Origin: a virus
Direction: 5' to 3' (one strand)
IMG/VR virus record: IMGVR_UViG_3300031841_001609
Location: 1 to 21,954 of that record
Length of the DNA stretch: 21,954 nt
Position 1 is the first letter of the stretch; each line of letters begins with the position of its first letter. The notes beneath the pieces were generated by a model. The model saw only the letters and a list, made by a program, of their open reading frames with translations, made no database searches and had not been told where the DNA came from. This document shows positions 988 through 20,820 of the stretch, in pieces. The position numbers and the translations under genes were made by a program.

Positions 988-3507
988 TTACACTGTGTAT
1001 AAATAATCTACGATTGCTCTACTCATTAAATAACCACCTACATGTGTTGGGTGTACTCTATCTGAGTTCATTATATTTGCATCAACAAGTAATTGAAATT
1101 GCGCATCAACCCCAGAAGTTAATCCAGTAGATTCAATTGGTTGCACAATACGAGAAAAATCAATAAAACCGCAAGATTTATCATGTGCTATTGAAATTAA
1201 AGCATCTCGATAATCACCTAATTTATAAGTCTTAGGGTCTTCCCACTCATACTTGGTAAAAGTAGGTAACATCAACACAATATCTTGCATTGGTTTAACT
1301 TCACGGATATTATCAATAATTCTTTCAATCCATGTGGTGTAATCCCCAGTCGGAGAGAAATTGTTACCCATCTCATTAGTAGCAAACATAATAAATGTTG
1401 CATCTGAGTCGAGTTCTGCAAAAGAGTGCTTCCATAAATCTGTAGCAGCAAATACTCCACCTGTTGCTCCAGACTTGCCGCACTTATGCAGCTGAAAACC
1501 ACTTAAATTATTATCGGTAACATCTTTGTCACCAACACCTCCAAGAAGAATAACATTTGTATCGCATGTCACTGTAATATTATAGGGAACACTTGTTTGT
1601 GCAGATAAATTAATATTAACGGTAGATACAGATTCAGTAGCATTCGTTGAAACAGTGACCGCAGCTCCTCCGTTTACACTATAAGTAAAGTCACCTCCAC
1701 CCGTCTGAGTGACATACATTAACTTAAAAGAATCCAGTGGTGTACCCTTTACCTCAATGTCAAAGGTAGCACCATTTGTATTTGACTCAATGTGAGAAGC
1801 GTCTGGTCCATGACCACCGCCCGCAGTTAGATCAAATTTTGCTACGTTTGCAATATCTATATCCATGTCTAACTCAGAGGTATCCACGGATAAATTAGGT
1901 AATCGAGCACTTCCATCAGAGTTCAGACTGTGCCAAGCAAAACTAAGATAACCAGCTCCAGCATTTTGAAAACCTTTTCCACCATTTTTAGTGGAAAGCA
2001 TCATATCTCTAAAAGGCTGGCATACGCGAAATGACCCATGCGTGTATGAATCACCAATCATACACACCTTAATTGGTCCTTTAGCAATATCATCAGTACC
2101 ATTTGGTTCAGCATGACCAAGGTAAGCTACGCGACCTAACTTCATCCGCAAAAGCCGTGTAGCATAATCATTTAAAGTTGTTGTATAACCAGCAGCTGTA
2201 ACGCCCTGACTCTGAAGCGTACTAACATCACTCTGTAGTGTTGTAACATCACTCTGTAGTGTTGTAACATCGCTTTCTAATGTTGTAATATCAGCTTCAG
2301 CTGTTGTTACTCTTGTTAATAGTTCGCTGTACGACTTATTAACAATATCACCATTCTTTTTAACTGCAAAAGCAACAAAATTCTGATTGTCGTGAACAAC
2401 AAATGCATACTGAGCAAAAAGTGATGTAGATCCTGCTTCTGATACTTCAATATCTCCAACTGGAATAGTTCCTTCAACTGTTCCAAAATTTGCAGTTATT
2501 TGACCAGTTAGTTTATTTTGCGTAACGCTAAGACCATTAGCAACTGTAGTGTTAATTGGTAGATTTGCGTATACAACACCATTTGATTTAATATATAAAG
2601 GTGCAAACCCATCCTGATCTACAACACTCCAAAAAATATCTGGATTTGTTATATTCTCAAAACGACGTTGTACATCTTGAGCTAATTTTTCAAACGTCAC
2701 CTGATTTGCAAGAAGATAAACAGGCGTTGCACCCCTTAATAACCAATTTGTACCATCGCTAAATACATAGCCACCATCTTCGGCAGTCCCTGTTGGCGCA
2801 TTTGCTCCTGTAAATGTTCCAGAAATACCATCAATAAAAGCCCACTTTCCTGTATTTGCTGTTGGGTCTGCAAAATCAGCAGTAAGCGATGTAATTGCAC
2901 CTAAGTAATTTTCTGGGTCCAAAGAACCAGCAATTGCGCTTTTTAGTTCAGGTGTTAACAAATCATAACGAACTGAACCCTCATTTGCATTATTTAAATT
3001 TGTATCCGCTTTTTCATTAATAACCGATATTGGATAAATACTGGACACTGAGTTACCGTTTTCGTCAGTTACTGCAATATTATCTTCTACAGCATTTGTA
3101 TCCGTAGCAGCTGGGGTATAGTTATTGTATAAACCCTGATTAGAGATTCCTGTAACATTTTTAGCTGGTGGTGTTCCTTGGGCATAAGTAGTTGCATCAG
3201 ATATATTATCAAAATCACGTACATCACCATCCCAATCCAACATGGCTATGTAGTCATTACCAGAAATAGTTCTTATTGTACCACCATTATCTGTATGCAC
3301 TCCTGTTGCACGCTTCCACTGCCTTGTCGGAGAATCTCCAAGCATACTACGCCCAGATGTAGTATACACCAAATCAATACTTGGTAACGTCGTTAACCCT
3401 TTTAAATAAATCAATAATTGACTTACAGTTATATCTGAGTTATTGGCTTTATTGAGTATTTCATCAATAGTGGAGCCTTCAAGAGAAAGTGTGTACGGAT
3501 CTGGCAT
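988..3507 (-). CDS. tail fibre/tailspike with C-terminal SGNH-hydrolase domain
   Basis: An 839-aa fibre. The N-terminal part (about 1-130) probably anchors to the tail. A long Thr/Asn/Gly-rich beta region follows to about residue 390. Residues 406-433 are four heptads of the type DVTTLQS, a short trimeric coiled coil. The C-terminal part (about 475-839) has the block order of SGNH/GDSL esterases: GDSYTHGS with predicted nucleophile Ser487, ATNEMGN with Asn711 in the place of the block III Asn, and DRVHPT near the end with Asp816 and His819 as the rest of the triad. Such domains on phage fibres usually remove acetyl or other ester groups from surface polysaccharide, so an esterase role on host glycan is likely but inferred. 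The gene lies between the small basic-protein cluster and the 291-aa putative adhesin, where T7-like phages often keep fibre genes. No clear Shine-Dalgarno precedes the ATG. Confidence 0.85.
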   Translation of the reverse strand: MPDPYTLSLEGSTIDEILNKANNSDITVSQLLIYLKGLTTLPSIDLVYTTSGRSMLGDSPTRQWKRATGVHTDNGGTIRTISGNDYIAMLDWDGDVRDFDNISDATTYAQGTPPAKNVTGISNQGLYNNYTPAATDTNAVEDNIAVTDENGNSVSSIYPISVINEKADTNLNNANEGSVRYDLLTPELKSAIAGSLDPENYLGAITSLTADFADPTANTGKWAFIDGISGTFTGANAPTGTAEDGGYVFSDGTNWLLRGATPVYLLANQVTFEKLAQDVQRRFENITNPDIFWSVVDQDGFAPLYIKSNGVVYANLPINTTVANGLSVTQNKLTGQITANFGTVEGTIPVGDIEVSEAGSTSLFAQYAFVVHDNQNFVAFAVKKNGDIVNKSYSELLTRVTTAEADITTLESDVTTLQSDVTTLQSDVSTLQSQGVTAAGYTTTLNDYATRLLRMKLGRVAYLGHAEPNGTDDIAKGPIKVCMIGDSYTHGSFRVCQPFRDMMLSTKNGGKGFQNAGAGYLSFAWHSLNSDGSARLPNLSVDTSELDMDIDIANVAKFDLTAGGGHGPDASHIESNTNGATFDIEVKGTPLDSFKLMYVTQTGGGDFTYSVNGGAAVTVSTNATESVSTVNINLSAQTSVPYNITVTCDTNVILLGGVGDKDVTDNNLSGFQLHKCGKSGATGGVFAATDLWKHSFAELDSDATFIMFATNEMGNNFSPTGDYTTWIERIIDNIREVKPMQDIVLMLPTFTKYEWEDPKTYKLGDYRDALISIAHDKSCGFIDFSRIVQPIESTGLTSGVDAQFQLLVDANIMNSDRVHPTHVGGYLMSRAIVDYLYTV
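2209..2292 (-). repeat. four 21-bp tandem repeats encoding fibre coiled-coil heptads
   Basis: Four in-frame 21-base units encode DITTLES, DVTTLQS, DVTTLQS and DVSTLQS. The two middle units (2230-2250 and 2251-2271) are identical at the DNA level; the outer ones have diverged. Hydrophobic V/I and L residues recur at heptad spacing, as in a trimeric coiled coil between the shaft and the enzymatic tip. The perfect central copies suggest recent duplication by slippage or recombination. Confidence 0.85.
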
Positions 3508-4883: not shown

Positions 4884-7800
4884 TTAATCTGGCTGTTGCA
4901 CCTCGTCAAGCATATCTTGCTGTATTTCAGCCAGATACTCGGTCATAACTTCGCCAATCATACCGTGTAACCACTGAGGTGGTCCGTAAATGTTGCCGCC
5001 AGTAAGTGCCTGAACATTATCTAGTGCTCCTTTTGCATCGCTACTGGCTAAATCAATACCCAATCCAAAGATTGTAGACGGCAGTGGAGACAGTGCTTCC
5101 ATAGCCCCAAAGTCCTTAACGTCCAAAGGTACTTCCAGAACCCCCAGAATACCAGACTGTTGCACTATTCGTGACCACTGGTACGGTCGCATATCAAATA
5201 GTGACATCGGTTCTTTACCTTGTGCCAGATCCTTAAGAACTGTTGCCATGTAGCCAAAAGCCAATGCGCCACCAACATAAGAAACAAGATGTGCTACCTT
5301 ATACGCCATAGCAGCGTCTCCTTCACCAAAGTCACCATTCATAAAGCGACGGTACAACAATTTGGTCATACCCACCATAAACGGTTGGTATTGTGTAGCA
5401 ATACGAGCCAGAGTACCCTCAAATGTACCTTTTCGAAAACCAAGGGTCATCTGGGCATTTGTACCTGCATCTGGCATAAAGACCGCCTGACGCATATATT
5501 TAGTAATATATTGGCGATACTTCTTAGCCAACTCAGCGTCCTTAATACCTGTGGGCACTACGCGAGAAACTCCATCAGGTGACTTAGTTACAGCTTTACG
5601 CAGTTTGTTAATTTCTTCTGCTGTAAATCCAAAGTCTATAAGATTTGCTCGCATCTGACGACCCATAGCTGGCTTGCCAAACTCACGAGCTATACCCTGA
5701 GTCAGTACATCCACAAACAGCTCTTGGTGAGCAGTTGTTAGCGCATTCAAACCATTTACTTTAAACAACAAGTTATGCAACTTGTCCATCTTTCCAACAT
5801 TTGTTGTTGTATCAGATAGTCGGCGAATAACTTGGTTGTTGATTGCGTCAAAGCCTGCGCCCTGCCCTAAAAAGAACTCGCGCATTCCATCCTGATCGTC
5901 ACCAAAGCGACGCCTCATTGCATCTGCATAGGCATCTAAAAACAGCTTATTTGTATCTCCAAAGCGAACACCCATAACCTCTAAGGTAGACGCAACCATT
6001 GGTATGTCGGTCAGTGATGAAATACCAGAACCAGACAAAAACAGAATATTACTCAACTGCTTAAACTTGTTCTCAAACGTAGCCAGCGTAGAATCTACAG
6101 GATTTTCTAAAATACCCGTAAGCGCATCTACTGTTGCTTTGTATGACTTTGCATTGAACGCGTTCTTACCTCGTCCTGTGCTTAAGCCACCAAGCAGACC
6201 AGTCAGCATCTCATTTGGCTTAGTCCCTGCAAAACTCGCCATTGTAGCCAACGCCGAACGACGCTGTATCTGCTGCAACATTAAATACCCTACATTGTCG
6301 TAGCCACTAAACTCAAGCATTACTTCTGTAGCATACTCAGGCTTAATGCGAACCATACGACCACCAAAAGATTCCTCTAAGTCAAAAACCTGTACATCCG
6401 AATCAATATTTCTGTTCGGGTCTAATGTGTCGTACCACTGTTCTAAGAAAGCATCTACTGTAAAAGGCTGCTCCTTACCATCAATAAACAAGACGCCTGC
6501 GTGTGTATTGGACGTAGCTTCTACGTCCATAACCTCTAACATACGAGCCTTAAATTGATTAAAGCCCATGTTATGGATAATTGTGCCATCCCACTTCTGA
6601 GACACACCACCGAAGTCAGAAAGCATTTTAATGTCCAAACCTGCAGCATTTAGTTCTTCCAGCAGCCGAACCTCTGTTGCCACTATAACATCAAATAACT
6701 CTTTTAGTGCTGGTACTTTTTCCCACTCTTCTGGGAGCTTGCGTGCTAATAATGCCTTGTGTAGCTCGTCGTGAAAAACCTTTGACCGATCTTTACGAGT
6801 CTTTCCAAACATCTGCCATTTTGGATCTTCACGATCAATACGGAAAACACCAAAGCTGTTATCTGGCATAAATAACTCATCCAGACCGTGCTTATAAATA
6901 ACATCAAGAATAGGTACTGCTGCATTCTGAGAGTTAGCAGTCATCTCATTCTCCAGACCTGCAATGCGCGGCATACCCTTACGCTCTTGACCGTCCAGAA
7001 GAGTACGTAGATATGCAAGCTTCTGGGCGTCTGTCTTAAAGTTACGCAACCGCTCGTTAATAGCTGCACGCTTCATTGAGTTGTTAACAACAGCCTGCGC
7101 CTTATCTTCGTAGTATTCTTTTACAATACGGTTCTTAACCGAGCGGTACTGAGCAGATGTTTGTTCCAAATCCTTCGTACCACGAAGTACCCTACGATAA
7201 AGGTCATTATTACGCAGTAACGACTTGTCGTTAACAAGATTCATTGAGTACATCCGAAGATTTTCGTACAACTCGTTGTAATCTGCATCAGATAGTATGT
7301 CTGCTCTTGTAAAGTCTTCGTCTATAATCTCACTCGTAAACTCACGGATACGTGCTCTGTATTCGTCAAAACCAATAAACTCCTGCGCGTCGGGGTCTAC
7401 ACCCTCAGCTAACTCATCAAGGTAATTAGTTAATGTTTCAACAAATCGCTGTACATTCTCCCCACGGACATTAGGCATTGTTGTAGCAGCCAACCGATTA
7501 AAGGTTTGTCTGCGGTGTTCGCGCAACTTAGCATTTTGCGCAGCTACTGTCTTCTCTGGCTTGTGATCTTCAATTACACGATCAGCTTCAGTCCTTACCT
7601 TAGTGTCAATAGGCTCTGAATAAACAACATTCCGAATGTTGTTGCTGATACTTTGAGACGCATCCAATATTTCATTAAACGGTAAATTTCTTCCACGCCC
7701 CTTGTTAATGATTGATGCCAACTGACGAGCAAACTCAGCTGGTGTCATATCCACCAAAAGACTATCTACATCTTTTAAGAAGTCCGTGTTAAGCTTTGAC

Positions 7801-9671
7801 TTACTAAATAATTCCTTAGCTCGTTGAAGCATCTCAACGATTGCCTCTGCAAATTTTTCAAACAGTGTTCTATTTGCTTTAGACAACTCATCCCAAAACT
7901 CTGCTTGGGTAATCGCCCACTCAAGTGTAACAGATGGGACCTCCTTCGTTCTCAGATCTCTTCTGTAATTACTTTTAAACTTCACTATCTCAGCTTCAAA
8001 GTCTGGATGCTTTCTGATAGCTGCTTGCAGCTCCGCATACACATCTGGCATAGCTGCCTCAATAATGTGCACTGCTTCGTGGAGCATCAGTGAAAAAGGA
8101 GATTTACCCATCCCCAAAATAACTTCTGCTCTGTTTAAGAAAATTTTATCTTGGCTTCCGAGTGCCTCACCAAACAAAATGCTGCCAGTTTCTTTGACGC
8201 CCCTCTTTTCTCGAGAAAGCTTTTCAAAGTTAAACTTACGCCCAAAAATATTGTTAATTACTGCGTTTGCTACACCAATCTCTCTGGAGTATGCTTTCTC
8301 ATACGCTTTATTAAAATTCGTCAACGCAGCTATCTTCTGCTCTTCGCTAATAACGCCCTTTTTAACAAGGTCGTCTAAGCTAGTTACACCTTCATCTTTT
8401 ATAAGTCTTAGGATGTTACCAGCACGGTAGTGTGCTTCTGCTAATGACCCTAAGTTATCCTTGTTATATTTAAGTCTTCCTTTTGTTGATTCTGTTGGCA
8501 GGTATCCCTCACCTTCGTCAAAGCGAGCACCAACCGAATCATTAACAACTGAGCGTGCAATCTCTTGGTCTACTTCACTAAGCCTGCTAATATCGCCTTC
8601 CTGTACAGCTACAAGTATCTCTGAGAAACGTGTGCGCTGCCTAAAGGCAAACTCATTAATACTTACATCTGGATCTGACTCTAACTCCGCGACCAATTGT
8701 TTTGACAGCGCGTTAGTAAGAGATGCCTGCAAACCTTCTGTGTGGTAATAGTTTAGCACACCACGTAAAGTTTTTAGTTGATCTGGATTTAGATTTGTAA
8801 AGTCAACAACACCGTCTGTCTGTATAGACGTGTTAAGAATTTCTGTAAACTCACCTGTTTTCTTAACTGCTTTACGGAAATCAGGGCTGCCCGCATACAA
8901 CACATTAGCCGCTTTAGTATACTCACCTGTTTGAAAAAACTGGCTCATATCCTCAAACATCTGAATCTTATTCAGATTGCGACCAGCGTGCCTAAAGTTC
9001 TTATACGCGCCGATGGGTCCAAAGAAACCAACACCAACTCCTGTACCTAAAACAATATCAAGGGCAACATCAGCTGCTCCGTAATCAACACCCAAATAGT
9101 CCGCGTGAACATAGTGAAAAGGTGACACAGCCACATTACCAACAAAGGCTTCGGCTGTATAGTCCTTAAGTGAATGCTTTGCAGCAGTCCACTTTTTTCC
9201 CTGCATTATCGCAGTATTAAGTTGGTTTACTTTTGAAACTTGCCTACCTGCGGAAAAGACCCTGCCAAATGGTACAAGGTTAGCTGGATCAAAAACTTGT
9301 GGTGATAACATACCCACCATATTTGTAATTGGGTATTTTTCATTTATCTTTTGATGGCGTATCTGCTGGGCAAGTTGCTCCTCTGCACGTAGCTCTAACT
9401 GTGTCGGTGTTTCGTCTTTAATGTAATCCAGATTAGGTAATCCAAGATCACGATACTTTTTGACATCATCTTCGGTAACCGCAGTCAATCCGTTTTTCTT
9501 ATCCTGCGTACCTGCATACCAGTTTTTTACTGGATTTGAGATATATCCAACTGCGTTAGTAAACCCTTCTTCCAATGATGCACCAAAAGACTCTTTTCGT
9601 CCTGTTAGTTTAACATGGTCACTTAAGTTGGTGGGTACACGCGCAGCTTTCGGTGTGTATGTAAAAGACAT
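4884..9671 (-). CDS. giant internal virion/ejection protein (T7 gp16-like position) with HEAVH metallopeptidase motif
   Basis: A 1595-aa protein, third of three consecutive large genes after the tail tubular genes, the place of T7 gp16 (1318 aa), which forms the DNA-ejection channel. Residues 531-535 are HEAVH within SLMLHEAVHIIEAAMP, a classic HExxH zinc-metallopeptidase helix with hydrophobic residues before it. The third metal ligand is probably a downstream acidic residue, for example in SVTLEWAITQAEFWDEL. I see no clear lysozyme or transglycosylase signature of the kind found at the T7 gp16 N-terminus. Long charged helical stretches (about 600-1000) suggest coiled coils. Hydrophobic stretches occur near 1205-1225 (NILFLSGSGISSLTDIPMV) and 1460-1475 (VGGALAFGYMATVL) and may insert into membrane. 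It begins 13 bases after the 893-aa gene. Virion location is inferred from order and size. Confidence 0.75.
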   Translation of the reverse strand: MSFTYTPKAARVPTNLSDHVKLTGRKESFGASLEEGFTNAVGYISNPVKNWYAGTQDKKNGLTAVTEDDVKKYRDLGLPNLDYIKDETPTQLELRAEEQLAQQIRHQKINEKYPITNMVGMLSPQVFDPANLVPFGRVFSAGRQVSKVNQLNTAIMQGKKWTAAKHSLKDYTAEAFVGNVAVSPFHYVHADYLGVDYGAADVALDIVLGTGVGVGFFGPIGAYKNFRHAGRNLNKIQMFEDMSQFFQTGEYTKAANVLYAGSPDFRKAVKKTGEFTEILNTSIQTDGVVDFTNLNPDQLKTLRGVLNYYHTEGLQASLTNALSKQLVAELESDPDVSINEFAFRQRTRFSEILVAVQEGDISRLSEVDQEIARSVVNDSVGARFDEGEGYLPTESTKGRLKYNKDNLGSLAEAHYRAGNILRLIKDEGVTSLDDLVKKGVISEEQKIAALTNFNKAYEKAYSREIGVANAVINNIFGRKFNFEKLSREKRGVKETGSILFGEALGSQDKIFLNRAEVILGMGKSPFSLMLHEAVHIIEAAMPDVYAELQAAIRKHPDFEAEIVKFKSNYRRDLRTKEVPSVTLEWAITQAEFWDELSKANRTLFEKFAEAIVEMLQRAKELFSKSKLNTDFLKDVDSLLVDMTPAEFARQLASIINKGRGRNLPFNEILDASQSISNNIRNVVYSEPIDTKVRTEADRVIEDHKPEKTVAAQNAKLREHRRQTFNRLAATTMPNVRGENVQRFVETLTNYLDELAEGVDPDAQEFIGFDEYRARIREFTSEIIDEDFTRADILSDADYNELYENLRMYSMNLVNDKSLLRNNDLYRRVLRGTKDLEQTSAQYRSVKNRIVKEYYEDKAQAVVNNSMKRAAINERLRNFKTDAQKLAYLRTLLDGQERKGMPRIAGLENEMTANSQNAAVPILDVIYKHGLDELFMPDNSFGVFRIDREDPKWQMFGKTRKDRSKVFHDELHKALLARKLPEEWEKVPALKELFDVIVATEVRLLEELNAAGLDIKMLSDFGGVSQKWDGTIIHNMGFNQFKARMLEVMDVEATSNTHAGVLFIDGKEQPFTVDAFLEQWYDTLDPNRNIDSDVQVFDLEESFGGRMVRIKPEYATEVMLEFSGYDNVGYLMLQQIQRRSALATMASFAGTKPNEMLTGLLGGLSTGRGKNAFNAKSYKATVDALTGILENPVDSTLATFENKFKQLSNILFLSGSGISSLTDIPMVASTLEVMGVRFGDTNKLFLDAYADAMRRRFGDDQDGMREFFLGQGAGFDAINNQVIRRLSDTTTNVGKMDKLHNLLFKVNGLNALTTAHQELFVDVLTQGIAREFGKPAMGRQMRANLIDFGFTAEEINKLRKAVTKSPDGVSRVVPTGIKDAELAKKYRQYITKYMRQAVFMPDAGTNAQMTLGFRKGTFEGTLARIATQYQPFMVGMTKLLYRRFMNGDFGEGDAAMAYKVAHLVSYVGGALAFGYMATVLKDLAQGKEPMSLFDMRPYQWSRIVQQSGILGVLEVPLDVKDFGAMEALSPLPSTIFGLGIDLASSDAKGALDNVQALTGGNIYGPPQWLHGMIGEVMTEYLAEIQQDMLDEVQQPD

Positions 9672-9684
9672 TAGTTACTATTAT

Positions 9685-12366
9685 TTACTTACCACGCTCA
9701 ATTTCACGCAGCACTTGTTCTCTAGCTGTTGCTCCAATAGTTGGAACCCAACCACCTTCGCTATTCAACCTGTTCATTGCTGCTGTACTTGTAATCACGA
9801 CCTGTTCGTTATTTGTATCAATCAGGTTTTCATACCGTCCTGTTGTTCGGTCGTAGTACCTCACAGCAACACCGATTTCGTTATTAGCCCACGACTTGGC
9901 ACTAAAGTCAAGTAATGGGTAGGAAGTACCACCAACAAAAACTCTACCGTCTTTTAAAATGTCCTGAATCTCTTCTTTTGTACGAGTAGTTGCTAGACCA
10001 AACTCCTCAACCATCTGACGAAATCCTGCTGGGAACTTATCTACGTTTTTAACCATTGCTGGTGTAAAGTTCAAATCGAAGCTCTGAGCTACTTCTGTTG
10101 CGTACACCTCTGCTGCACGGTTAGTTGCCTGCTCAGGAAGTACACTGTAGTCTCCATTTCTAAAACGAGCTGAAAGCTGTTGCCGATCGTAGTAGCTTGC
10201 TCGACCCAAAAAAGATAATGTTTCTGGGCTGATGCCAAAAACTACATTGACATCCGTAAACGGCAATGTCGTACTAAGTATACGCTCCAAAATTGGATTC
10301 ATCGGCTTACGGAACTCTAAGTCAACCGCATCAAGCATTGATGGTAGAAGAGTAACCTTGGTGTCATTGTACGCCACTCTTGTTAAACCTGTTCGCTGTG
10401 TTAATAACTCACGCTCTTTATCAAAGAATGTGTTTAACATCCTAGCACGAGTAGCTTGGTCCTGACCTGCTAAAATATTTACAGTTGTCTCTGCTGACAA
10501 AGCTCTTTCAAGCTTGCCTTTTAGTCCGCCTTTTTCAACACCGTATATATCATCTGCAAAAGCATCTGTTACTGAAACAATCAAGCCTTGAAACAATGAC
10601 AAGTACGCATCAGCCTCCTCAGCATCTCCATTCTGCAAGGCTACCTTGTACATGTTGTACACCTCACTGTCCGTCATCTCAGTTGTTTCTGGAGCCTGTC
10701 CTGCTTCACCACCAAGAAACATCTGAGTAATCGGTGTATGCTGAGCATCAACATATCGATCAGACGCCGCCGTTAAGTCTGTAACTACTTTTGTAATCTT
10801 AGCAGCTTCTTCTGGGCTTGCAGCCATTGAAGCAAGCTGATAATTTAATCCCATTGCACGATCTGCTTTTGTCGCGTTTGGGTTTTTCATTAGATTATGA
10901 CCACGCTGAGCTACTGCTGCTGGTGTGTTATCTGTCAACGCCTGCGCAATATGCAACGACGAGGACTCTACATCGTTAGCACTCCATGGGATACTGTTAC
11001 CAGTAAATAATGGCATATCCCTGTACCCCATATCTCTTAACAACTGAGCCTGCTCTGTTGCGTCAGGTGTTAGCAACCCAAGAACCGAAGTGTCACCGCC
11101 CTGTAAGCCTTTGTGGATGCTTAAGGCAACCGTGTTTACATATTGACGCAGCTTACCTGCATCATCTGCTCTCACATTAGGTAGTAACTCGTCATCCAAC
11201 ACATACTTTGGTATGTTACCGTTTTGTTTTGCTTCTGAAAGTGCAGTCAACAACCCCTGCCTAAAGGGACTGGTTACAATTGCCTCACCAGCAGCATTCT
11301 CAACCTGTTGTGGTTGAAAAAACACAGATATTGAAGCTGCTGATCTATATTTCTCTCTATCCGCATCATTTAAAAATGCTGGATCGATATCCATCAGCAC
11401 ATTACTTGTATTTGTCGCTGCTGCAACCATACTCTCAATATCTGATGCCTGACCTAACGTGTTTAAAAATGTCTGTGATACTTGATCTAACGCAGCTGTA
11501 TTCTGTGCTATCAAGAGTTTGTTACCATCTGCTGTTAGTGCATCAACTCTCCGTTCAGCAGCATCTGTAAGTGCCTTACGATCATTTTCATTAACAAACT
11601 CAAGCTGATCGCCGTACTGCTCAATACCTTTTGAGACATAGTGGTTAATCTCATCAATGCTCCTAGCATTTTCAATGTTATGTAAAAAAAGCTGACGAGC
11701 CATACCACTTGCATCGCCTTTAAACGCAGCAACCGACTCAGGTGATGTTAGACCACCCAAACCTTCGTGATTACCCAAAGCTATAATACCTGTCAGTGCT
11801 GTATCAAACGTATCCGTTTGCATTGTCCGACCAAGATTATTCTGACGTGCTTGGTGTAAGCCCACACTTGCTTCACTCCGAGATGTCTTAAGCAAGTTCT
11901 TTAATTGATGGTGCGGCTTTAATGCTCGAAGCTTAAGCTGAGCTTTTTGATATAACTCCGTAGCTCTGTCTGTGTACCCATTAGCTTGGTAAAAAGTTGG
12001 ATCAGAAACTTTTGTTGGCGCAAAATTATCTAAAGTAAAATTTGCAGCAGATGTATCGAATGTTGCCAAAGCCGACTCTGCTTCCGCAATCGCGTCATCG
12101 TTCTCCTGTGCATATGCATCTTGAACAGCAGCAACAGCCGTATTTAGCTGCAACCCATACTGGGTGTCTGCGCTGTTTGCTGCAGATTTATTTACAGCGA
12201 ACTGCTTCTTAGCAAACATATCACCCACAGAGCCTGCTGCTCGTGCTGTTTGGTTCAAAGCATCCGACACAGCGGATAAGGGCGACTCAAACACCTGCTT
12301 ATATCCAAAAACAGACGCATCTGCTTTTTGTTGTTCTACGACACCTGTTTTTACTCTAATTGCCAT
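9685..12366 (-). CDS. internal virion/ejection protein (T7 gp15-like position)
   Basis: An 893-aa protein, somewhat longer than T7 gp15 (747). It is largely helical in appearance: Ala-, Gln- and Asp/Glu-rich with no membrane segments. The N-terminal 130 residues resemble a coiled coil (for example SANSADTQYGLQLNTAVAAV). I see no enzymatic motif. In T7, gp14, gp15 and gp16 leave the head and form a channel from the outer membrane to the cytoplasm; gp15 is the periplasmic tube. The same role is inferred here from order and size rather than from clear sequence similarity. Its ATG shares one base with the stop of the gp14-like gene (TAATG) and follows a strong GGAGG at a short distance, one of the few good Shine-Dalgarno sequences in the window. 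Confidence 0.7.
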   Translation of the reverse strand: MAIRVKTGVVEQQKADASVFGYKQVFESPLSAVSDALNQTARAAGSVGDMFAKKQFAVNKSAANSADTQYGLQLNTAVAAVQDAYAQENDDAIAEAESALATFDTSAANFTLDNFAPTKVSDPTFYQANGYTDRATELYQKAQLKLRALKPHHQLKNLLKTSRSEASVGLHQARQNNLGRTMQTDTFDTALTGIIALGNHEGLGGLTSPESVAAFKGDASGMARQLFLHNIENARSIDEINHYVSKGIEQYGDQLEFVNENDRKALTDAAERRVDALTADGNKLLIAQNTAALDQVSQTFLNTLGQASDIESMVAAATNTSNVLMDIDPAFLNDADREKYRSAASISVFFQPQQVENAAGEAIVTSPFRQGLLTALSEAKQNGNIPKYVLDDELLPNVRADDAGKLRQYVNTVALSIHKGLQGGDTSVLGLLTPDATEQAQLLRDMGYRDMPLFTGNSIPWSANDVESSSLHIAQALTDNTPAAVAQRGHNLMKNPNATKADRAMGLNYQLASMAASPEEAAKITKVVTDLTAASDRYVDAQHTPITQMFLGGEAGQAPETTEMTDSEVYNMYKVALQNGDAEEADAYLSLFQGLIVSVTDAFADDIYGVEKGGLKGKLERALSAETTVNILAGQDQATRARMLNTFFDKERELLTQRTGLTRVAYNDTKVTLLPSMLDAVDLEFRKPMNPILERILSTTLPFTDVNVVFGISPETLSFLGRASYYDRQQLSARFRNGDYSVLPEQATNRAAEVYATEVAQSFDLNFTPAMVKNVDKFPAGFRQMVEEFGLATTRTKEEIQDILKDGRVFVGGTSYPLLDFSAKSWANNEIGVAVRYYDRTTGRYENLIDTNNEQVVITSTAAMNRLNSEGGWVPTIGATAREQVLREIERGK

Positions 12367-13016
12367 TATCCTCCAAAGCCGAATGATTTAATACCTGCTG
12401 TCTGATTCGATGAAAGTGCTGAACTTGTCATACTTACACCACCAGCAATTGTTCCTAATGCAGAAGCAATACCAGCAGTCTTTGTAGCACTTGCCTGATT
12501 CTTCAAGTTGTTAGACTCATTCTGTGCACCAAACAGGATATTACGAGCATTTGTCTCACCACGCTGGTGATACAGCTTACCCATACGTGTATGCTCGTTC
12601 GCCTGCAAGTAACCAGATAAACTCTCATCTGAAATTTGTGCAGCTACAGAAATCTGTTGCGCATATGCATCATCTTCCAATGAGTCCATGAACGAATTAA
12701 ATGTACCACCATATCCAAACTTAGCATCAAAGCCAGCCAACTCCTGCTGTGTCTTTTTCGCGAAGATTGCTTGCTCCCGCTCAGCTTCATCCATCGCCCG
12801 TTGTCGGTTAGCTAAAACAACTGCGCGGTCATACTCCGACTGCTGTTGCTGCGCCTGCGCATTACTGCGCTCAACTGCTGCATTGTATTTACCCTGCTCT
12901 TCGACGGCTTTTGCATTTGCCTCCAACGCCTTAGCTTGTTGGCGTGAAGACATATAACCAACCGCTGCCGAAGCTGCGGTTGTTGCTGCAATGATAAATG
13001 GTACTGCCGTTGCCAT
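12366..13016 (-). CDS. internal virion protein (T7 gp14-like)
   Basis: A 216-aa protein close in length to T7 gp14 (196). The N-terminus has a hydrophobic segment (AVPFIIAATTAASAAVGYM, about 4-22). A long Ala/Gln/Glu-rich helix (about 25-95) follows, and then a Gly/Ser/Ala-rich hydrophobic C-terminal part (TAGIASALGTIAGGVSMTSS). This layout is typical of the small internal protein that inserts into the host outer membrane during DNA ejection. It starts two bases after the tail tubular B stop and overlaps the next gene by one base, so the three internal-protein genes form one coupled unit. Assignment rests on order, size and composition. Confidence 0.75.
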   Translation of the reverse strand: MATAVPFIIAATTAASAAVGYMSSRQQAKALEANAKAVEEQGKYNAAVERSNAQAQQQQSEYDRAVVLANRQRAMDEAEREQAIFAKKTQQELAGFDAKFGYGGTFNSFMDSLEDDAYAQQISVAAQISDESLSGYLQANEHTRMGKLYHQRGETNARNILFGAQNESNNLKNQASATKTAGIASALGTIAGGVSMTSSALSSNQTAGIKSFGFGG

Positions 13017-13017
13017 A

Positions 13018-16000
13018 TTAATTTAAGTCGGTTTTTGTCACAAGTGACACGATAGTAAGTGGATACGGTTCACTTTGCTCAATGTCTATGATTTTATCAA
13101 CCCCAAAATAAGCACCTCTGAGCGGCTTTTCTCGGTCAAAGCCTGTAAATGAGGTTTGAGGTGGGGCTACATAATCAAGAAAGGTATTTAATGCAAAGCC
13201 ATCAGACGTTAGTAACTCAGAACCTGTTGAATCATTGATTTGTGTTAAATAATCAGATATGCTCGAAACACCTCGGTCTTCTGCTGAGACATGACCATCC
13301 AGCTCAATTAACTCTAAATCACCATCAATACCGATACTATAGCGTGACGAGTCCACCAAATAAGCCTTTGAGGATATTATACGAGCGTTATCTGAACCGT
13401 ACGATGGTTTGTTTGCACCATCCCATGTTGGATACATTGGCTGTAATTCACCTGTATACTTTAACCCAATTGTCCAACGTTCAGACTCCCCCAATAACAT
13501 CTGTATTTGTATCTTACCACCTACAATCTCATAGTTGCCCATATATGTCCCAGATACAACTACATCAACTCTACGGTTGCTCCTAAATACATCTGTATAT
13601 GTCGGTACTATTGTTAGTGTTTTTGTAGTCTGATCATATGCCTGTGTGTTCTTACCCACAACACCTGTTTCAGAGCTATCTAAATAAACCGTCGGCTCGT
13701 CCACATCCGATGGGAATGGAACTGTTGGTTCTCCATTAATATTCGCATCCGAGGACAGCACTTCATGCTGAACAAAGCCAAACCTATTAACTAAAATATA
13801 GACCTGATCCAGTCCAGACTTATATGTCTCACGGAGAACAACAAGGTCTAAGACATCTGCACCATCTGCTATTACTACTTTTGACCAAGCATAGTAATCT
13901 TCTTGGCGTTGGTATGTTAAACAATAAATAACACCTGAACTAGTTAATACCCATATCCTTGGTTGAGGTGTTTCCTGTACCGCAATTCGCTTAATTGTGT
14001 CTGTTGTTAGTACTGGGAATATAAATTTCGATATATCGTTTGCATTACTTCGCTGTATTGCCCCATCATACTTATACTCCAATAACTGCGTTCCTGACTC
14101 ATTTGGAAAGAATATTGATGTGCCTACCATATAGGCTTCATCCTTACAATTAACCTCATCATTTAACTGAAAACGAATGGTTTTTGGACTAACAGCAGCT
14201 TCATATTCATTAACCGACATTGAAAAGATACCCCTAGTAGTACCCACAATTAAATCCTTAGCTGCAATAATCCAACGAACTGATGAGTTTACATTCGACA
14301 ATGGGTATGAAATTCCATTTGTGTCCAGAACTGTCTTGTCATCCTCTGACGGTGCAAACGAATCTTCATCATCAAGCTGACTAAAGAATACGTAGTTTGG
14401 ATTTGACGGTGTGCCACCGTAAACACGCCGACGCTCAAAATAAGCTACATCTGATGGGTAATTATTTGAGTACCAAGCACCAAAACTAAATGTTTCAAAC
14501 CTACCTGAATTTTCAAAACCACCCGTCACACCACTTCTTGGTACTGGATTCTTTAATCTAGCACGAACTTCAGTATCTGAGGTTCTATCTATAATCTGCA
14601 TATACACAACACCTGTTGGCATAACACCTCTAACATGACGATCGACAGATGTCCCAGCTGTAAAAATACCATCAGTAGCTGTTATTGTAACATCATTAGC
14701 TATCTCGGTTATGCTTAACGCCCCTGTTGGTTGTATGAGATTTGCGCTAACACCTCCCAATGTGTCCGAATGAACCGCGTCTACACTCGTGTCTACCTTA
14801 TGGACATCAAACTCCAGTGCTGTTGATAAATTACCAATTACATCGTCTGCACTTGCGTTATCATCAGCTGTTAGCGAATTACCATTTGTAATTACAAAAA
14901 TACCACCGACCCAAGTAAATGTTCTTTGACCACCTGTTGTTATCTCAGCTGTCAAAGTACTCGCGCTATGACTTGACGAGGAGTGTACTTCAAAAGAAAC
15001 ATCGCCGTAAGACTTATACACAGCCCCGTATTCATAAAAACCTAAATCATTAGGAGTTACTGGATCTTCATTGTAATCAACCCCCAGTATACCCTCACCT
15101 CTAACAAAGTCTACTGGGTGAGCCTCATTACCTAAATACTTCTCAATCTTTACCCAGCGAGTCATTGAACTACTGCTGTCAACCAACACATCACTTGATG
15201 AGTTTTCTTCGTTAACACGAATCCATGAACTAATCTGTGATGAATCAAAAATATCAGTGTCTGTGCGTAAATGCACCTCACCAACTGGAACCGCATCTTT
15301 TGTTAACGCATGCTCCTGAACCGAACCTGATGTTGTAACATTATTGTCCAGCAAATACAGTTGAGCAGATGCATCATTGATATCGGTTACAAAATCAGCT
15401 TGGTCCACGTAAACAACTGTTGGTGTGGGACCTGTCACTTCTGGGTAGTTTGTGGCTGAATCAATAACCTTACCAAGCAGCCAAACATCGTTTACCTCAT
15501 ACTCAACATACCAGTCTTTAGAAAATGTATTAGCTTGCTTACCACCAGTTGTATCAATATAGTCATCATATATGTCTTGGAAGTCAGCAGTTGTACTTTC
15601 AACTTTAGCAACTTCCTCACCCTTAGTGATGTCAAGACGTGTACTTGTTTGCTCTTCTTGAAGAAATGGCTCAATATACGTGTCTACTTCGTAAAAATAA
15701 GATATATCGTTTTCAATCTCAAACTTTCGAGGTCTGTGGCTGGGATGACAAATATAGATAACACTTGTTTCTGAACTAAAACGTAAATCATTAAGTTGCT
15801 CAACCGTATACGGTGTGTTCAACCACTGATATTGAAGTACACCATCTGTATCAAATACACGCAGTTTTTGATGAGTAAACACAAGTCTATACGACTCATC
15901 CTTACCTACTGTTAAGTGTATCTGCCTGAATTGTGTGTCAGTCTCCTCTGGGTCTACATAAGATAACTGAAACCCCTGACGATATGTAGTGGGTCCCTGT

Positions 16001-16128
16001 AATGAGGGGAAAAAGTTTGTAAGCTTACGGCACGAGTTAGCAACGCGATCAATATCCGTCCTACCCGCTAAATTATCGGTGATTAGACCACCAGAAAAAT
16101 TTGTAGTAACATTACTGTATCGTGCCAT
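13018..16128 (-). CDS. tail tubular protein B (nozzle), T7 gp12-like
   Basis: A 1036-aa protein. The N-terminus (NVTTNFSGGLITDNLAGRTD, followed by a CRKLTNFFPSLQGPTTYRQG segment) is the classic start of gp12-like nozzle proteins: an SGGL motif, Arg/Asp, then a Cys/Leu-N-F-P segment with GxxxR(Q)G. Further family features are YFERRRVYGGTPSNPNYVFFSQ and the following beta-propeller-like repeats. It would form the hexameric tip of the short tail. It is about 240 aa longer than T7 gp12 (794). Part of the excess may be a Ser/Thr/Val-rich segment at about 373-500 that reads like an inserted Ig-like or other beta domain. The start overlaps the tail tubular A gene by 17 bases. Confidence 0.9.
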   Translation of the reverse strand: MARYSNVTTNFSGGLITDNLAGRTDIDRVANSCRKLTNFFPSLQGPTTYRQGFQLSYVDPEETDTQFRQIHLTVGKDESYRLVFTHQKLRVFDTDGVLQYQWLNTPYTVEQLNDLRFSSETSVIYICHPSHRPRKFEIENDISYFYEVDTYIEPFLQEEQTSTRLDITKGEEVAKVESTTADFQDIYDDYIDTTGGKQANTFSKDWYVEYEVNDVWLLGKVIDSATNYPEVTGPTPTVVYVDQADFVTDINDASAQLYLLDNNVTTSGSVQEHALTKDAVPVGEVHLRTDTDIFDSSQISSWIRVNEENSSSDVLVDSSSSMTRWVKIEKYLGNEAHPVDFVRGEGILGVDYNEDPVTPNDLGFYEYGAVYKSYGDVSFEVHSSSSHSASTLTAEITTGGQRTFTWVGGIFVITNGNSLTADDNASADDVIGNLSTALEFDVHKVDTSVDAVHSDTLGGVSANLIQPTGALSITEIANDVTITATDGIFTAGTSVDRHVRGVMPTGVVYMQIIDRTSDTEVRARLKNPVPRSGVTGGFENSGRFETFSFGAWYSNNYPSDVAYFERRRVYGGTPSNPNYVFFSQLDDEDSFAPSEDDKTVLDTNGISYPLSNVNSSVRWIIAAKDLIVGTTRGIFSMSVNEYEAAVSPKTIRFQLNDEVNCKDEAYMVGTSIFFPNESGTQLLEYKYDGAIQRSNANDISKFIFPVLTTDTIKRIAVQETPQPRIWVLTSSGVIYCLTYQRQEDYYAWSKVVIADGADVLDLVVLRETYKSGLDQVYILVNRFGFVQHEVLSSDANINGEPTVPFPSDVDEPTVYLDSSETGVVGKNTQAYDQTTKTLTIVPTYTDVFRSNRRVDVVVSGTYMGNYEIVGGKIQIQMLLGESERWTIGLKYTGELQPMYPTWDGANKPSYGSDNARIISSKAYLVDSSRYSIGIDGDLELIELDGHVSAEDRGVSSISDYLTQINDSTGSELLTSDGFALNTFLDYVAPPQTSFTGFDREKPLRGAYFGVDKIIDIEQSEPYPLTIVSLVTKTDLN

Positions 16129-16735
16129 AGGTTCGGTGTGTACCTAAAATTCTAGATGTTGAGTCATCCATTGGAGCTTGTGATGGTCCCTGCCTTCCGT
16201 CCACCACTCGTGCACGACGAAGCGCAAGCATATATTGTTGGAAGAGTATCTCGTGTCGATTTTCAGAGCCTGATAACTCAATACTTAAAGCTTGGGCTAT
16301 GTGCAGTACAATGACACGGTTTAAGAATGGTGGTATAGATTCTGCGTATTCCTCTAAGTCTGGGACAAACGTAAAGTACAAGTTAACACTGTCTTCATTT
16401 GCATACAGAGTACCCTGCTCAATAACATAGTCAGAAATCTTATAATGTTGTGTTGGGTGCTCTAAGTAGTATAATGTATTAAAATCAGATGGTAGTTCAA
16501 AATAATTCTCGTACGGTCGATCAGTAATTAAGGTTACATTAACAGCCGATAACTCAACTTTTCGGGTATTGTAGCTAAACCTGTTTTCAGAGAAAATTTC
16601 TAAAATTGCGTCAAGATACGCCTGATTAGCAATCTGGTACGTTGTGCTTGTAGTGTCGTTCTCGTCCAGAAAATAACTGCCTACTTTACGTAGAGCAGCA
16701 TTCATTATGTTCAGCTTTGTAGGCGTAGTTGACAT
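16112..16735 (-). CDS. tail tubular protein A (gatekeeper/adaptor), T7 gp11-like
   Basis: A 207-aa protein, close to T7 gp11 (196). The N-terminus (TKLNIMNAALRKVGSYFLDE) has the family pattern of K-L-x-x-x-N-x-A-L-R-x-x-G. The region ANQAYLDAILEIFSENRFSY corresponds to the conserved a-x-x-x-L-x-x-x-x-W/F region before the first beta strands. It forms the dodecameric ring between portal and nozzle. The ATG at 16735 lies two bases after the T-tract of the terminator that follows the capsid gene, and there is no Shine-Dalgarno. Its synthesis therefore depends on readthrough of that terminator or on a promoter I cannot see. The family pattern begins six residues after this start, which supports it over the internal Met11. 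Confidence 0.9.
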   Translation of the reverse strand: MSTTPTKLNIMNAALRKVGSYFLDENDTTSTTYQIANQAYLDAILEIFSENRFSYNTRKVELSAVNVTLITDRPYENYFELPSDFNTLYYLEHPTQHYKISDYVIEQGTLYANEDSVNLYFTFVPDLEEYAESIPPFLNRVIVLHIAQALSIELSGSENRHEILFQQYMLALRRARVVDGRQGPSQAPMDDSTSRILGTHRTYGTIQ

Positions 16736-16788: not shown

Positions 16789-17832
16789 TTAGGATTCGTT
16801 ACAACGGATCTCTCCAGCAACCTCACCCCACATACGAGAAGCATCTGCACAGAGCTTAAAGTAGATGTAAGGGATGTTTTTCTTGGAAGGATCGCGCCAC
16901 ATGTCGCCCTTAAGTCCTGTACCAACAGACATCTTAAGTGCTTTAGGTGATGCAACAATAACACGACGCTCGTCACCGTCAGTACCAGTTGAAAGCGGTA
17001 GACGCTCACAGTGGATGAAACGGAATCCGAGGAAGGTTGTTACAGTACCTTCAACAAGCGACTTGCGTACTGCGTAGTCAGAGCTGACCACTTCATCAAT
17101 ACCCAGAAGGTCGTCAATCTGTTTTGCAGTAACAAAGCAGTTAACGATGTCATCTTGGTCGATTGAGTGAAGCTTCAGCATGGTTGTACGTGCTGCACGA
17201 AGCTTCTCAAGTGTCAGACCAGAACTTGCTGTTCCATAATCGCCACCAACAGAGAAGCCTTCGGTGTTGCCACCAGCAACTACATAACTACCAGCTGTGG
17301 TAATGTCACCAGCAGAAACAGCACCAACAACAATGTTGCTGCGGTTTTCGTCGCCAGCACCTTCTGCGAAAGTAACAGAAGTTCCGCCACTCTTACCAGT
17401 GTATGCAGTGCCAAAGAACTTGTCGATGATAATGTCATCAATCTTACGCTTACCCGAAGCAAGAAGTGCTTGGGTGTAAGCATTCATTGGATCGGTGATC
17501 ACACGCTTAAGGTCCTTCTCGTCGATATACTTACCGAGTTCGTAGTCCTTAAGACCGATGCGACGACGGTCGTGATTGATTTCACTATTGGGGTTAGTAC
17601 CAAAACGAGAAGTGTCTTCCGCCATGTCCTCGGCTTTGCCGATACGGTCGAAGTACTGATACTCTTCGTTCTGTGTTTCCTGTTCGAAATACGGCTGAAG
17701 CTTTGATTCGGATTGCTGGAACGCTTGTTCGAATCCTTCACGGAAAGCTGCAACGTATGCTTTTTCAATATAATCGTTACCAGAACCTCCTCCAGTGGAG
17801 TAGCCCTGTGAACCTACTGCTGATAATGCCAT
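16789..17832 (-). CDS. major capsid protein (T7 gp10-like)
   Basis: A 347-aa protein, nearly the length of T7 gp10A (345), with a HK97-type fold expected. Recognisable family regions are EKAYVAAFREGFEQAFQQSE near the N-terminus, the DRRRIGLKDYELGKYIDEKD segment, the helix DPMNAYTQALLASGKRKIDD and the KLHSIDQDDIVNCFVTAKQI region with the following FLGFRFIHCERLP. The C-terminus includes MWGEVAGEIRCNES. It assembles the icosahedral shell on the scaffold protein encoded just upstream. The gene is isolated: a terminator precedes its leader and another follows its stop. The ATG is preceded by an almost pure A/T stretch with no Shine-Dalgarno, which is odd for the most abundant phage protein. I see no in-frame slippery site giving a T7-like minor capsid form. 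Confidence 0.93.
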   Translation of the reverse strand: MALSAVGSQGYSTGGGSGNDYIEKAYVAAFREGFEQAFQQSESKLQPYFEQETQNEEYQYFDRIGKAEDMAEDTSRFGTNPNSEINHDRRRIGLKDYELGKYIDEKDLKRVITDPMNAYTQALLASGKRKIDDIIIDKFFGTAYTGKSGGTSVTFAEGAGDENRSNIVVGAVSAGDITTAGSYVVAGGNTEGFSVGGDYGTASSGLTLEKLRAARTTMLKLHSIDQDDIVNCFVTAKQIDDLLGIDEVVSSDYAVRKSLVEGTVTTFLGFRFIHCERLPLSTGTDGDERRVIVASPKALKMSVGTGLKGDMWRDPSKKNIPYIYFKLCADASRMWGEVAGEIRCNES

Positions 17833-18004: not shown

Positions 18005-18931
18005 TTAACCTTCTCCGTACAGCTGAGCATAAAGCTGTGCACGCTTGTCAAGGATTTGCTGACGTTTTGATCGGTCAGCCATCGGCAGCGACGAAGGGTT
18101 TGACAAGATTAGCTCAGAATTTGATGCATCCAAATCCTGAATCTGAGCACGAATACCCTGAACTGAACCACTACCAAAAGCAGATGGTACGTTGCTACCT
18201 GACGGCGGTAATGTATCACCCATAGTCTGAGACAACTTATGAAACAACTTCATTGTTGCTGGGTGATTAGCTACAATCGGATCACTAATCAATTCATTAA
18301 GCTCTGGGATCTCCTGAGATAACGTGTTGAATGCCTCGGTGCTACTCTTCATATTGACGTCGAAGTCGTCCTTCCACTCTGCCTGAAGAGCTGTCTTAAA
18401 CTCTTTTAGAGTACCCGCTTGCTGCTGTATGACATTCTGATTGCCTTCGGCATACATCTGACCGTAGCGACTGTATAGCTGATCAAATTGACGTTGCGTT
18501 AAACCCATCTCACCTGCGAAATCCACAAGCTCTTGGACTGTGTCGTCGTCGAAGTTAGGAGCTTCGACACCGTCAAAGCCTTCTGGTAACTGAATCTCTT
18601 CAGGAACTGAGTACTCATCATTCTCTGGGCGTAAGTTTCCATAAAACTCCTCCCATTGATCATCACCCCAGTCTTCCTGTGGTGATTCAAGACGTTTCTT
18701 ACCCAAAGCACTTTGAGCATTTAACATCTGGTTAGCAAGAGATGTAAAATCTTTTGTCTCTTGTAGTGCTTTTGCACCGCGTACATCCTCTGGTAGTGTT
18801 TCGACAAACTGCCGATACATATCTTCGCTACCAAAATCCACACTAGGTGCAGACTCTGTGACGTTACTCTCAGTCTGGACGGGTGTCTCTGTTAACCCGC
18901 TACCCAAACCTTCTGTAGTTTCTTCACTCAT
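18005..18931 (-). CDS. capsid scaffolding/assembly protein (T7 gp9-like)
   Basis: A 308-aa, strongly acidic protein, the same length as T7 gp9 (307) and directly upstream of the capsid gene. The N-terminus is disordered, rich in Thr, Glu and Ser. The middle has the family-like stretch QWEEFYGNLRPENDEYSVPE, where peptides of the type Y-x-x-P or Y-x-V-P precede a loop of Asp/Glu/Pro. The C-terminal part is helical and ends in a basic patch (PMADRSKRQQILDKRAQLYA), the usual capsid-contacting end of a scaffold. It would direct prohead assembly and then leave. The start overlaps the Bbp19-like gene by 8 bases and has an AGGA 12 bases upstream of the ATG. Confidence 0.88.
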   Translation of the reverse strand: MSEETTEGLGSGLTETPVQTESNVTESAPSVDFGSEDMYRQFVETLPEDVRGAKALQETKDFTSLANQMLNAQSALGKKRLESPQEDWGDDQWEEFYGNLRPENDEYSVPEEIQLPEGFDGVEAPNFDDDTVQELVDFAGEMGLTQRQFDQLYSRYGQMYAEGNQNVIQQQAGTLKEFKTALQAEWKDDFDVNMKSSTEAFNTLSQEIPELNELISDPIVANHPATMKLFHKLSQTMGDTLPPSGSNVPSAFGSGSVQGIRAQIQDLDASNSELILSNPSSLPMADRSKRQQILDKRAQLYAQLYGEG

Positions 18932-19203: not shown

Positions 19204-20820
19204 TTATATGTTTAAAAGTTGACCAACCCCCTCTGGGTCAATCGACTTAGCTTGTGCAATATCTTTCATTGCGCCCCCAATTTGCGGAGCAGCTTGTGCT
19301 GCCTGCATCATCTGTTGTTGCTCGGCAGCTCCTTGTTTCATTTGTTGTAGTTCTTCTTCCGAGCGAATCACCGTTGGGGTTACGTTACGATAACGTGCGT
19401 AATCCTCAAATAATTGACGCTCATTAAGTGCCTCCATAAGCTCAGGCTTAACCTGCGCAAGTGGCGCAATATCACGCATAAATGCGCTCATATCCGAAAG
19501 ACGTGTAGAATACTGAGACTGTGCTGCAGGACTTGCATACGCAATCTCAAGCTCAACACCATTCATCGAAGCAGGTGCTTCTGGAAGCTCACCAGCACGC
19601 TCCAACATCTCGTATGTGATCTCAATTGCTGGTCCGATATACTCAGACTCCATACGGTTGATAAGCGGAGCCAGCTGATTCAGCATCTGACCGCGAGTGT
19701 CCTGAATCTCAGTTACACTCTGACGCTCCTTCTTCTCCTGACGGATAATCTGGTCAACAAAGAATGAACGATTAATCGTATCACGATACATGCGAATCAT
19801 GTCCATCATGTACTGTGGCTGGTTGCCTGCCATAATTGGAGCAGGCTTCTCACTACCTGCCTCATGGAATACAACCTGACGTGAGCCGTACTTCATAGGC
19901 AGCATAATGCTGTCCTCTTCGGCTGTCAGTGTTGGGAAATTCAAATACTCGGATGAAATCAAGACTTCCTTGACCATCTTATTGAGCACACGGATCTGGG
20001 ATAAGCATGTAAATGCTGGTCCGCGTCCGTATACCTCATCCGCTAACTTAGACCACCGAGGTACTAAGAATGTAAAATAACTTGAGCCGTCTACCTTAAG
20101 AGGCTCTTTAAATGATGGACACCAGTAAGTAACTGTATATGGACGCTCGGGTCCTACACGACCACCCTTTTTAGCTCGCTTGTCTGTGCTGGGCTGAATC
20201 GTGTATATAAGCTCATACTTAGAGTTGATACCGCGATTCTTGTCATAGCCCTGCATGTCCTCAACCTGCGGGAACATCTGCTTTAATTGACGTGCTGTCT
20301 TAAAGCAGCGGTAGAACACAGTGTCCACACGTCCGTGCGCATTAACATCAAAAAATGTATCAGCCAATGGGCGAGTTCGGAAGTTTACCACACCATCCTG
20401 ATATGATACCTGAACAGGTGATGTGCCGTACGCGCCGATATCTAGGAAGCACTCGTGTGATGCTGAATAGAACTGGGACTCAGGGAGTGCCAGCTCATGC
20501 ATAATACGATCAGAGACTTGTTGTAAGTATGTAAGCTCTTGGGGATTTAGCTGAGCTGTGGGTACATCCTTTGCTCGCAAATACATCCAACGATCCGACT
20601 TCGGAATCATATTCGAAGCCAAACCGTTAGCAAACATCTGATTACACCAGACGGCAGTGTCGTCAAAGATCTCGCGCGAGTCATCTTCTTTTCGCGTTGT
20701 GTGGTGGTGGTCAAACTCGTTTGAGTTCGGACGCACATACCGTTGAGAGTCTTGAAACATGTGGTCGAGATTCGACCGCAGTAACTTTAACTCCTCATAT
20801 CTCTGGCGTAAATCATTCAT
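19204..20820 (-). CDS. portal (head-tail connector) protein, T7 gp8-like
   Basis: A 538-aa protein, the same size as T7 gp8 (536). The N-terminal region (LRQRYEELKLLRSNLDHMFQ, then PNSNEFDHHHTTRK and REIFDDTAVWCNQMFANGLA with SNMIPKSDRWMYLRA) is the conserved start of the head-tail connector family: a leading helix, a D-x-T/S-A motif, and L-A-x-x-x-x-S-x-x-x-P-x-x-x-W. The central stem and wing regions follow, and the C-terminal 60 residues are Gln/Ala-rich (GAAEQQQMMQAAQAAPQIGG), as in other portals of this group. The dodecameric ring is the DNA entry and exit channel and binds terminase and tail tubular protein A. The start has no Shine-Dalgarno, only A/T-rich sequence. It lies six bases after the upstream stop. 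Confidence 0.93.
   Translation of the reverse strand: MNDLRQRYEELKLLRSNLDHMFQDSQRYVRPNSNEFDHHHTTRKEDDSREIFDDTAVWCNQMFANGLASNMIPKSDRWMYLRAKDVPTAQLNPQELTYLQQVSDRIMHELALPESQFYSASHECFLDIGAYGTSPVQVSYQDGVVNFRTRPLADTFFDVNAHGRVDTVFYRCFKTARQLKQMFPQVEDMQGYDKNRGINSKYELIYTIQPSTDKRAKKGGRVGPERPYTVTYWCPSFKEPLKVDGSSYFTFLVPRWSKLADEVYGRGPAFTCLSQIRVLNKMVKEVLISSEYLNFPTLTAEEDSIMLPMKYGSRQVVFHEAGSEKPAPIMAGNQPQYMMDMIRMYRDTINRSFFVDQIIRQEKKERQSVTEIQDTRGQMLNQLAPLINRMESEYIGPAIEITYEMLERAGELPEAPASMNGVELEIAYASPAAQSQYSTRLSDMSAFMRDIAPLAQVKPELMEALNERQLFEDYARYRNVTPTVIRSEEELQQMKQGAAEQQQMMQAAQAAPQIGGAMKDIAQAKSIDPEGVGQLLNI

Follow-up and report, generated by a model that had tools for sequence, protein, structure and literature searches.

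The 1595-aa protein encoded at 4884..9671 (-) of the window (the whole stretch of 21,954 nucleotides analysed here, from virus record IMGVR_UViG_3300031841_001609) appears to carry, in the middle of a gp16-like ejection protein, a discrete and optional module of the gluzincin type, which on balance we judge would be injected into the host and most likely cut host protein(s) there. The predicted active site centers on HEAVH, residues 531-535 (8067..8081 (-)), with H531 and H535 as predicted zinc ligands and E532 as predicted general base. An earlier sequence-only reading of this DNA had placed HEAVH at exactly these residues and bases, which we confirm, and its interpretation as a zinc metallopeptidase is supported by the conserved residues, the predicted layout and the behaviour of the module in related phages. 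The weight of the case for this predicted site rests on conservation and not on the five letters HEAVH.

The identity of the carrier protein was examined using profile searches and gene order. The PHROG_684 (virion structural protein) profile matches residues 834-1513, herewith called the C-terminal core (5133..7172 (-)), with E=3.8e-37; this core is kept in cultured podoviruses, and the named PHROG_684 members come from Ab31, phiVC8 and HTVC100P, in each of which they are the final internal virion protein. The N-terminal conserved core, residues 1-440 (8352..9671 (-)), is kept in all relatives, including one designated L043, the C-core of which also matches PHROG_342, the T7 gp16 family (E=2.2e-12). 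L043 is the sole relative scanned with such an additional match; the 1595-aa protein itself gave no direct PHROG_342 match and no similarity to T7 gp16 in direct profile comparison, the link running via L043. Neither Pfam (E<=1) nor NCBIfam (E<=0.1) gave a domain match anywhere in the 1595-aa protein, and PDB sequence searches using either the whole protein or the domain as query found no relative. Ahead of the gene come the tail tube gene and then two other genes for putative internal virion proteins. Based on the PHROG_684-type C-terminal half, the place in the operon and the match of L043 to PHROG_342, 'gp16-like ejection protein' is a fair description of this presumed virion component, and the T7 gp16 position assigned to it in the sequence-only reading is upheld.

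The neighbouring genes in the window code for a portal or head-tail adaptor (19204..20820 (-); PHROG_332, E=1.4e-95), a head maturation protease (18005..18931 (-); PHROG_458 protease, E=6.9e-12) in the same place as epsilon15 gp6, a major head protein (16789..17832 (-); PHROG_3437, E=6.2e-50), and tail proteins in the positions of tubular protein A (16112..16735 (-); PHROG_394, E=1.5e-18) and tubular protein B (13018..16128 (-); PHROG_376, E=1.3e-77). Three putative internal proteins follow tail proteins A and B, measuring 216, 893 and 1595 aa. The 216-aa protein (12366..13016 (-)) matched no family and is assigned to the gp14 position by its location only, while the 893-aa putative internal virion protein (9685..12366 (-)) occupies the gp15 position, was not similar in sequence to T7 gp15 or epsilon15 gp15/gp16, and gave no transglycosylase match. 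A tail protein of 839 aa, encoded at 988-3507 (-) of the window, terminates, behind a coiled coil, with a GDSL lipase/acylhydrolase domain at residues 671-822 (Pfam E=9.5e-11), which suggests a spike or fibre that may deacylate surface sugars.

HEAVH is the sole HExxH in the 1595-aa protein, with 0.02 expected from composition. Counting the window, 14 distinct contigs have an intact domain, and every one of them keeps the HExxH motif together with a downstream Y-x7/8-E-x-P-S-x3-E-W-A, a signature that persists down to about 30% identity (29-33%). Invariant in the intact homologues are H531, E532 and H535, the three residues proposed for the site in the sequence-only reading, along with Y569, E577, P579, S580, E584, W585 and A586. 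Since the middle letters of the motif vary across the family (HEAVH, HEATH, HEALH, HEAGH, HEAMH, HEAIH, HEGVH and HEHIH), only the catalytic letters are fixed. In an alignment of 12 sequences, the invariant columns concentrate on HExxH and the stretch E577-W593. Within the downstream part, Tyr569 (7965..7967 (-)), belonging to the conserved Y-x7/8-E, is a candidate for the catalytic Tyr known from MtfA and lethal factor, and the segment EVPSVTLEWA, residues 577-586 (7914..7943 (-)), includes E577, a candidate third zinc ligand in an E-x-x-S/A context, and the family-invariant E584. Of the complete relatives, L062 (2100 aa) and L064 (1735 aa) have diverged furthest; their identity is 23-38% in the blocks covering residues 551-650 and falls to 11-26% in the neighbouring blocks. 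The relatives L045/L062, L049 and L064 were found by patterns containing EWA, so that their E584-W-A is present by selection; their HExxH and Tyr are independent of this search pattern. Among pairs of the window, L001, L002, L003 and L012, the zincin domain gave dN/dS of 0.11-0.20, indicating purifying selection, and this is 2-4 times the C-core value. Relatives of the protein turned up in viral contigs only: bacterial and archaeal genomes, scanned twice with the domain, yielded no relative, and no zincin-bearing relative was found among named phages. Five pattern matches (L026, L032, L046, L047 and L048) hold no HExxH and were discarded as chance. In L017 (contig IMGVR_UViG_3300046170_000095), the zincin frame breaks at about position 8381, right after HEAGHVLKQFDP, and continues in another frame, which represents either an assembly error or a broken gene.

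The zincin module, residues about 460-690 (7602..8294 (-)), was delimited by its absence as a block in L043, by its conservation as a block elsewhere, including L045/L062, L049 and L064, and by the structure model described below. L043 (7968-12125 (+)), which was recovered via a C-terminal pattern and not via the zincin, is a 1385-aa version of the ejection protein with 42% identity. Its frame is continuous and its N- and C-terminal cores align throughout, and the window residues about 460-690 have no counterpart save scattered alignable residues. As the module is cleanly missing while both flanks stay homologous, this comparison shows a discrete and separable module that would be dispensable to the ejection protein. 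L043 is a single contig, yet an assembly artefact is unlikely, because a clean in-frame loss would be an odd artefact. The cultured PHROG_684 ejection proteins examined contain no HExxH; T7 gp16 holds HERLH, unrelated to the zincin HExxH. In the 2100-aa protein of L062 (L062:5946-12245 (+)), extra insertions flank the zincin on both sides, the longest unbroken one being about 115 aa, and these parts gave no family match apart from a weak one to PHROG_3590.

The AlphaFold model of residues 440-660, based on 12 sequences, reached pLDDT 71 and pTM 0.70. Block means were 74-92 in the part that starts with the HExxH helix and runs to the helix following the Glu helix, whereas the strand region had low confidence (pLDDT about 40-60). 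The modelled elements follow in the order N-terminal helix, three strands, HExxH helix, two-helix insert, and a helix carrying both E577 and E584; in model numbering, the helix H4-37 precedes the strands E42-45, E65-67 and E70-73, an arrangement to be read as an order of elements only. Residues 531-535 lie on model helix 86-101, and E577 and E584 on model helix 132-147. The predicted layout is that published for the zincin-like metallopeptidases of polyvalent proteins, namely helix, three strands, HExxH helix and Glu helix (PMC5512222). The sequence-only reading named a third zinc ligand next to the HEAVH helix as a test, and the model sets conserved Glu residues, candidates for such a ligand, on the helix after it. 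The PDB fold search with this better model gave no significant match to any solved structure. Among the viral models of BFVD, the best match gave E=4.5e-4 with a match probability of 1.00, the best matches spanned E=4.5e-4 to 0.2, and later rows included proteins annotated as large-polyvalent and ART-PolyVal, with TM-scores of only 0.33-0.39. The mini-gluzincins 4jix, 4qhi, 4qhg and 4qhf (Z 3.3-3.8; 97-104 residues aligned at rmsd 4.4-5.8) did not rise above unrelated rows and were dropped as evidence. A first structure model (residues 411-690, 9 sequences) had pLDDT 62 and gave no usable fold match.

Searches of the profile libraries (PHROGs, Pfam and NCBIfam) with the domain gave only weak, non-significant matches, including Pfam M90 (PF06167), which scored 13.8 bits where its cut-off demands 26.2. 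The strand and the HExxH helix could be aligned with E. coli MtfA (hhalign P=2.5e-4 over 39 columns; also P=6.9e-4), and the direct profile similarity of the domain to N4 virion RNA polymerase (vRNAP) and P1 DdrB was insignificant. MtfA and lethal factor are characterized by HExxH plus E plus Y with a Y-x6-E motif (PMC6356308). After its HExxH, MtfA reads Y-x6-E211-C-F-A, and the phage family reads Y-x7/8-E577-x-P-S. From the Y-x6-E motif and the structure of MtfA, we take E211 to be its third zinc ligand. In a hand alignment, the position of E577 is common to MtfA E211, N4 vRNAP E2310 and P1 DdrB E955; at this place N4 vRNAP reads E-F-M-A and P1 DdrB E-V-F-S, both without Tyr and both without a counterpart of E584. 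Since the position is common to these three proteins, E577 is most likely the third zinc ligand; E584, which had been considered for this role, was set aside after the same comparison and probably belongs to the second shell. The domain looks as if it resembles a gluzincin in its working, but we do not class it as a member of M90, because of its score below the Pfam cut-off and its different Tyr spacing.

In the mechanism that we propose, H531, H535 and a Glu of the following helix, most likely E577, would bind Zn2+, E532 would activate water, and Y569 would probably stabilise the transition state; such zinc binding and catalysis by the module we consider highly probable. The ejection protein would reside inside the head, be threaded through the tail upon infection, and refold in the host envelope and cytoplasm, and the protease would then arrive with the genome, ahead of any phage gene expression; delivery together with the genome we hold to be just as probable. 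The N-terminal part of T7 gp16 is located in the periplasm and its C-terminal part presumably in the cytoplasm (PMC8954989), and as the zincin lies between the two cores, it could act in either compartment. Two roles have been discussed for the zincins of polyvalent proteins, self-processing and attack on host proteins (PMC5512222). We prefer the second of these, as an accessory function directed at a host protein, on account of the relative without the module and the faster evolution of the domain than of the C-core. The protease would most likely act on a single host protein or a small number of them, with roles in defence, the envelope or regulation, although taken by itself the assignment of the substrate to the host is close to an even call.

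The zincin might instead cut the very protein that carries it, either inside the host or already in the head before ejection, and so set free the N- and C-terminal portions. The module sits between two independently conserved cores that a cut there would part, and autoprocessing has been proposed for P1 DdrB and other polyvalent zincins (PMC5512222), but L043 without the module and the cultured PHROG_684 proteins manage regardless, and N4 vRNAP is packaged uncut despite carrying such a domain (PMC5512222). Self-processing is thus a serious but rather unlikely explanation.

The sequence-only reading had also proposed that, with no transglycosylase signature apparent in the 1595-aa protein, a peptidase may take the place of the transglycosylase. 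Its first part agrees with our profile searches (Pfam and NCBIfam), which detected neither a transglycosylase nor an SLT or lysozyme signature when applied to the window's ejection genes and the virion genes examined. Because a control search of the same kind did pick up the SLT domain in T7 gp16 (E=1.7e-31), the lack of a recognisable transglycosylase can be taken as real at such sensitivity. SLT was detected in only 2 of the 11 related records, each time on a small ORF of its own, and just one of these two exceeded the cut-off. These results leave room for a peptidoglycan endopeptidase assuming the local wall-opening role of the T7 gp16 transglycosylase. Against the proposed replacement itself stand the location of the module in the middle of the protein (about 460-690), the SLT of gp16 being N-terminal (1-156), and L043, which is without the whole module. 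In addition, the nearest resemblance is to MtfA, of the protein-acting type, and most of the related records are fragments beyond which an SLT could lie. Known peptidoglycan peptidases mostly belong to other metallopeptidase clans. We therefore regard a wall-opening endopeptidase as improbable, and among the substrates listed in the sequence-only reading the peptidoglycan cross-link becomes the least favoured, a host protein or the ejection protein being likelier. The small SLT-like ORFs, about 145-156 aa, are found in L050 (IMGVR_UViG_3300046170_000095) and L051 (IMGVR_UViG_3300007539_000074), that of L051 adjoining replication-type genes, and are perhaps endolysins.

A zincin fold without catalysis could serve as a structural or zinc-stabilised spacer, in keeping with the mainly structural nature of ejection proteins, which refold during ejection; we consider this quite improbable, since a spacer needs none of E532, the ligands and the downstream Tyr and Glu, all of which are invariant in the 14 contigs while their surroundings drift. 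That HEAVH arose by mere chance within a helical protein, a view for which only the general motif frequency noted above could be cited, is refuted by the homologues, in which it is kept with the Tyr and two Glu, the whole block being gained or lost.

No domain is commoner than the zincin in the polyvalent proteins of phages and plasmids (PMC5512222), and zincin domains in injected phage proteins are already known, N4 vRNAP and P1 DdrB being named carriers of zincin-like MPTase domains (PMC5512222, Iyer et al. 2017). As far as these tools show, three things are new: the carrier, a signature that includes Tyr, and the natural occurrence of the protein both with the module and lacking it. We tentatively suggest that an uncultured podovirus lineage may have turned a gp16-type ejection protein into a vehicle for an optional effector protease similar in kind to MtfA and lethal factor. 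Injected with the genome, this protease would disable a specific host protein ahead of all phage gene expression. The targets of polyvalent-protein zincins are mostly guesswork, and natural phages that have this ejection protein in either form offer a clean comparison for the role of an injected protease, with a compact module and a testable predicted active site. The gp16-type ejection proteins would then be exchangeable carriers of cargo, and not merely parts of a DNA channel.

In comparison with known systems, the 1595-aa protein resembles T7 gp16 (PHROG_342) as a large ejection protein in the same operon place, and through the PHROG_342 match of the L043 C-core, but gp16 carries an N-terminal SLT where the phage protein has none, having the mid-protein zincin module instead. 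With Ab31 ORF16, phiVC8 p19 and HTVC100P gp44 (PHROG_684) it shares a homologous C-terminal half; the cultured proteins compared in detail are 769-974 aa in size, and lack both HExxH and the N-terminal 740 residues in the same chain. The gene order of portal, protease, major head protein, tail A, tail B and then internal proteins is that of epsilon15, and epsilon15 gp17 corresponds to the 1595-aa protein by operon position. The likeness to MtfA (M90; PDB 3dl1, 9srw) covers an I-x-L-N strand, F-x-x-x-x-HExxH and then Y-x6-8-E-x-x-A/S, and the second Glu 7 residues on and the aromatic-rich tail are as in the MtfA/lethal-factor type. In contrast, the insert is 59 residues in MtfA and 42 in the phage domain, the Tyr spacing is 6 in MtfA and 7-8 in all phage family members, the Pfam M90 score stays far under its cut-off, and no structural match was significant. 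N4 vRNAP and P1 DdrB differ from the phage family in a third-ligand spacing of 78-79 against 42 and in the absence of the extra conserved Tyr, and the carrier here is of the gp16/PHROG_684 type, without polymerase or other recognisable enzyme domain. They agree with it, as modelled, in the HExxH helix after three strands, the strand-then-HExxH pattern being visible at N4 residues 2201-2232 and DdrB 845-876, and in a Glu on the next helix, and further in a zincin embedded within a large packaged or injected protein, as the protein family would imply for the 1595-aa protein.
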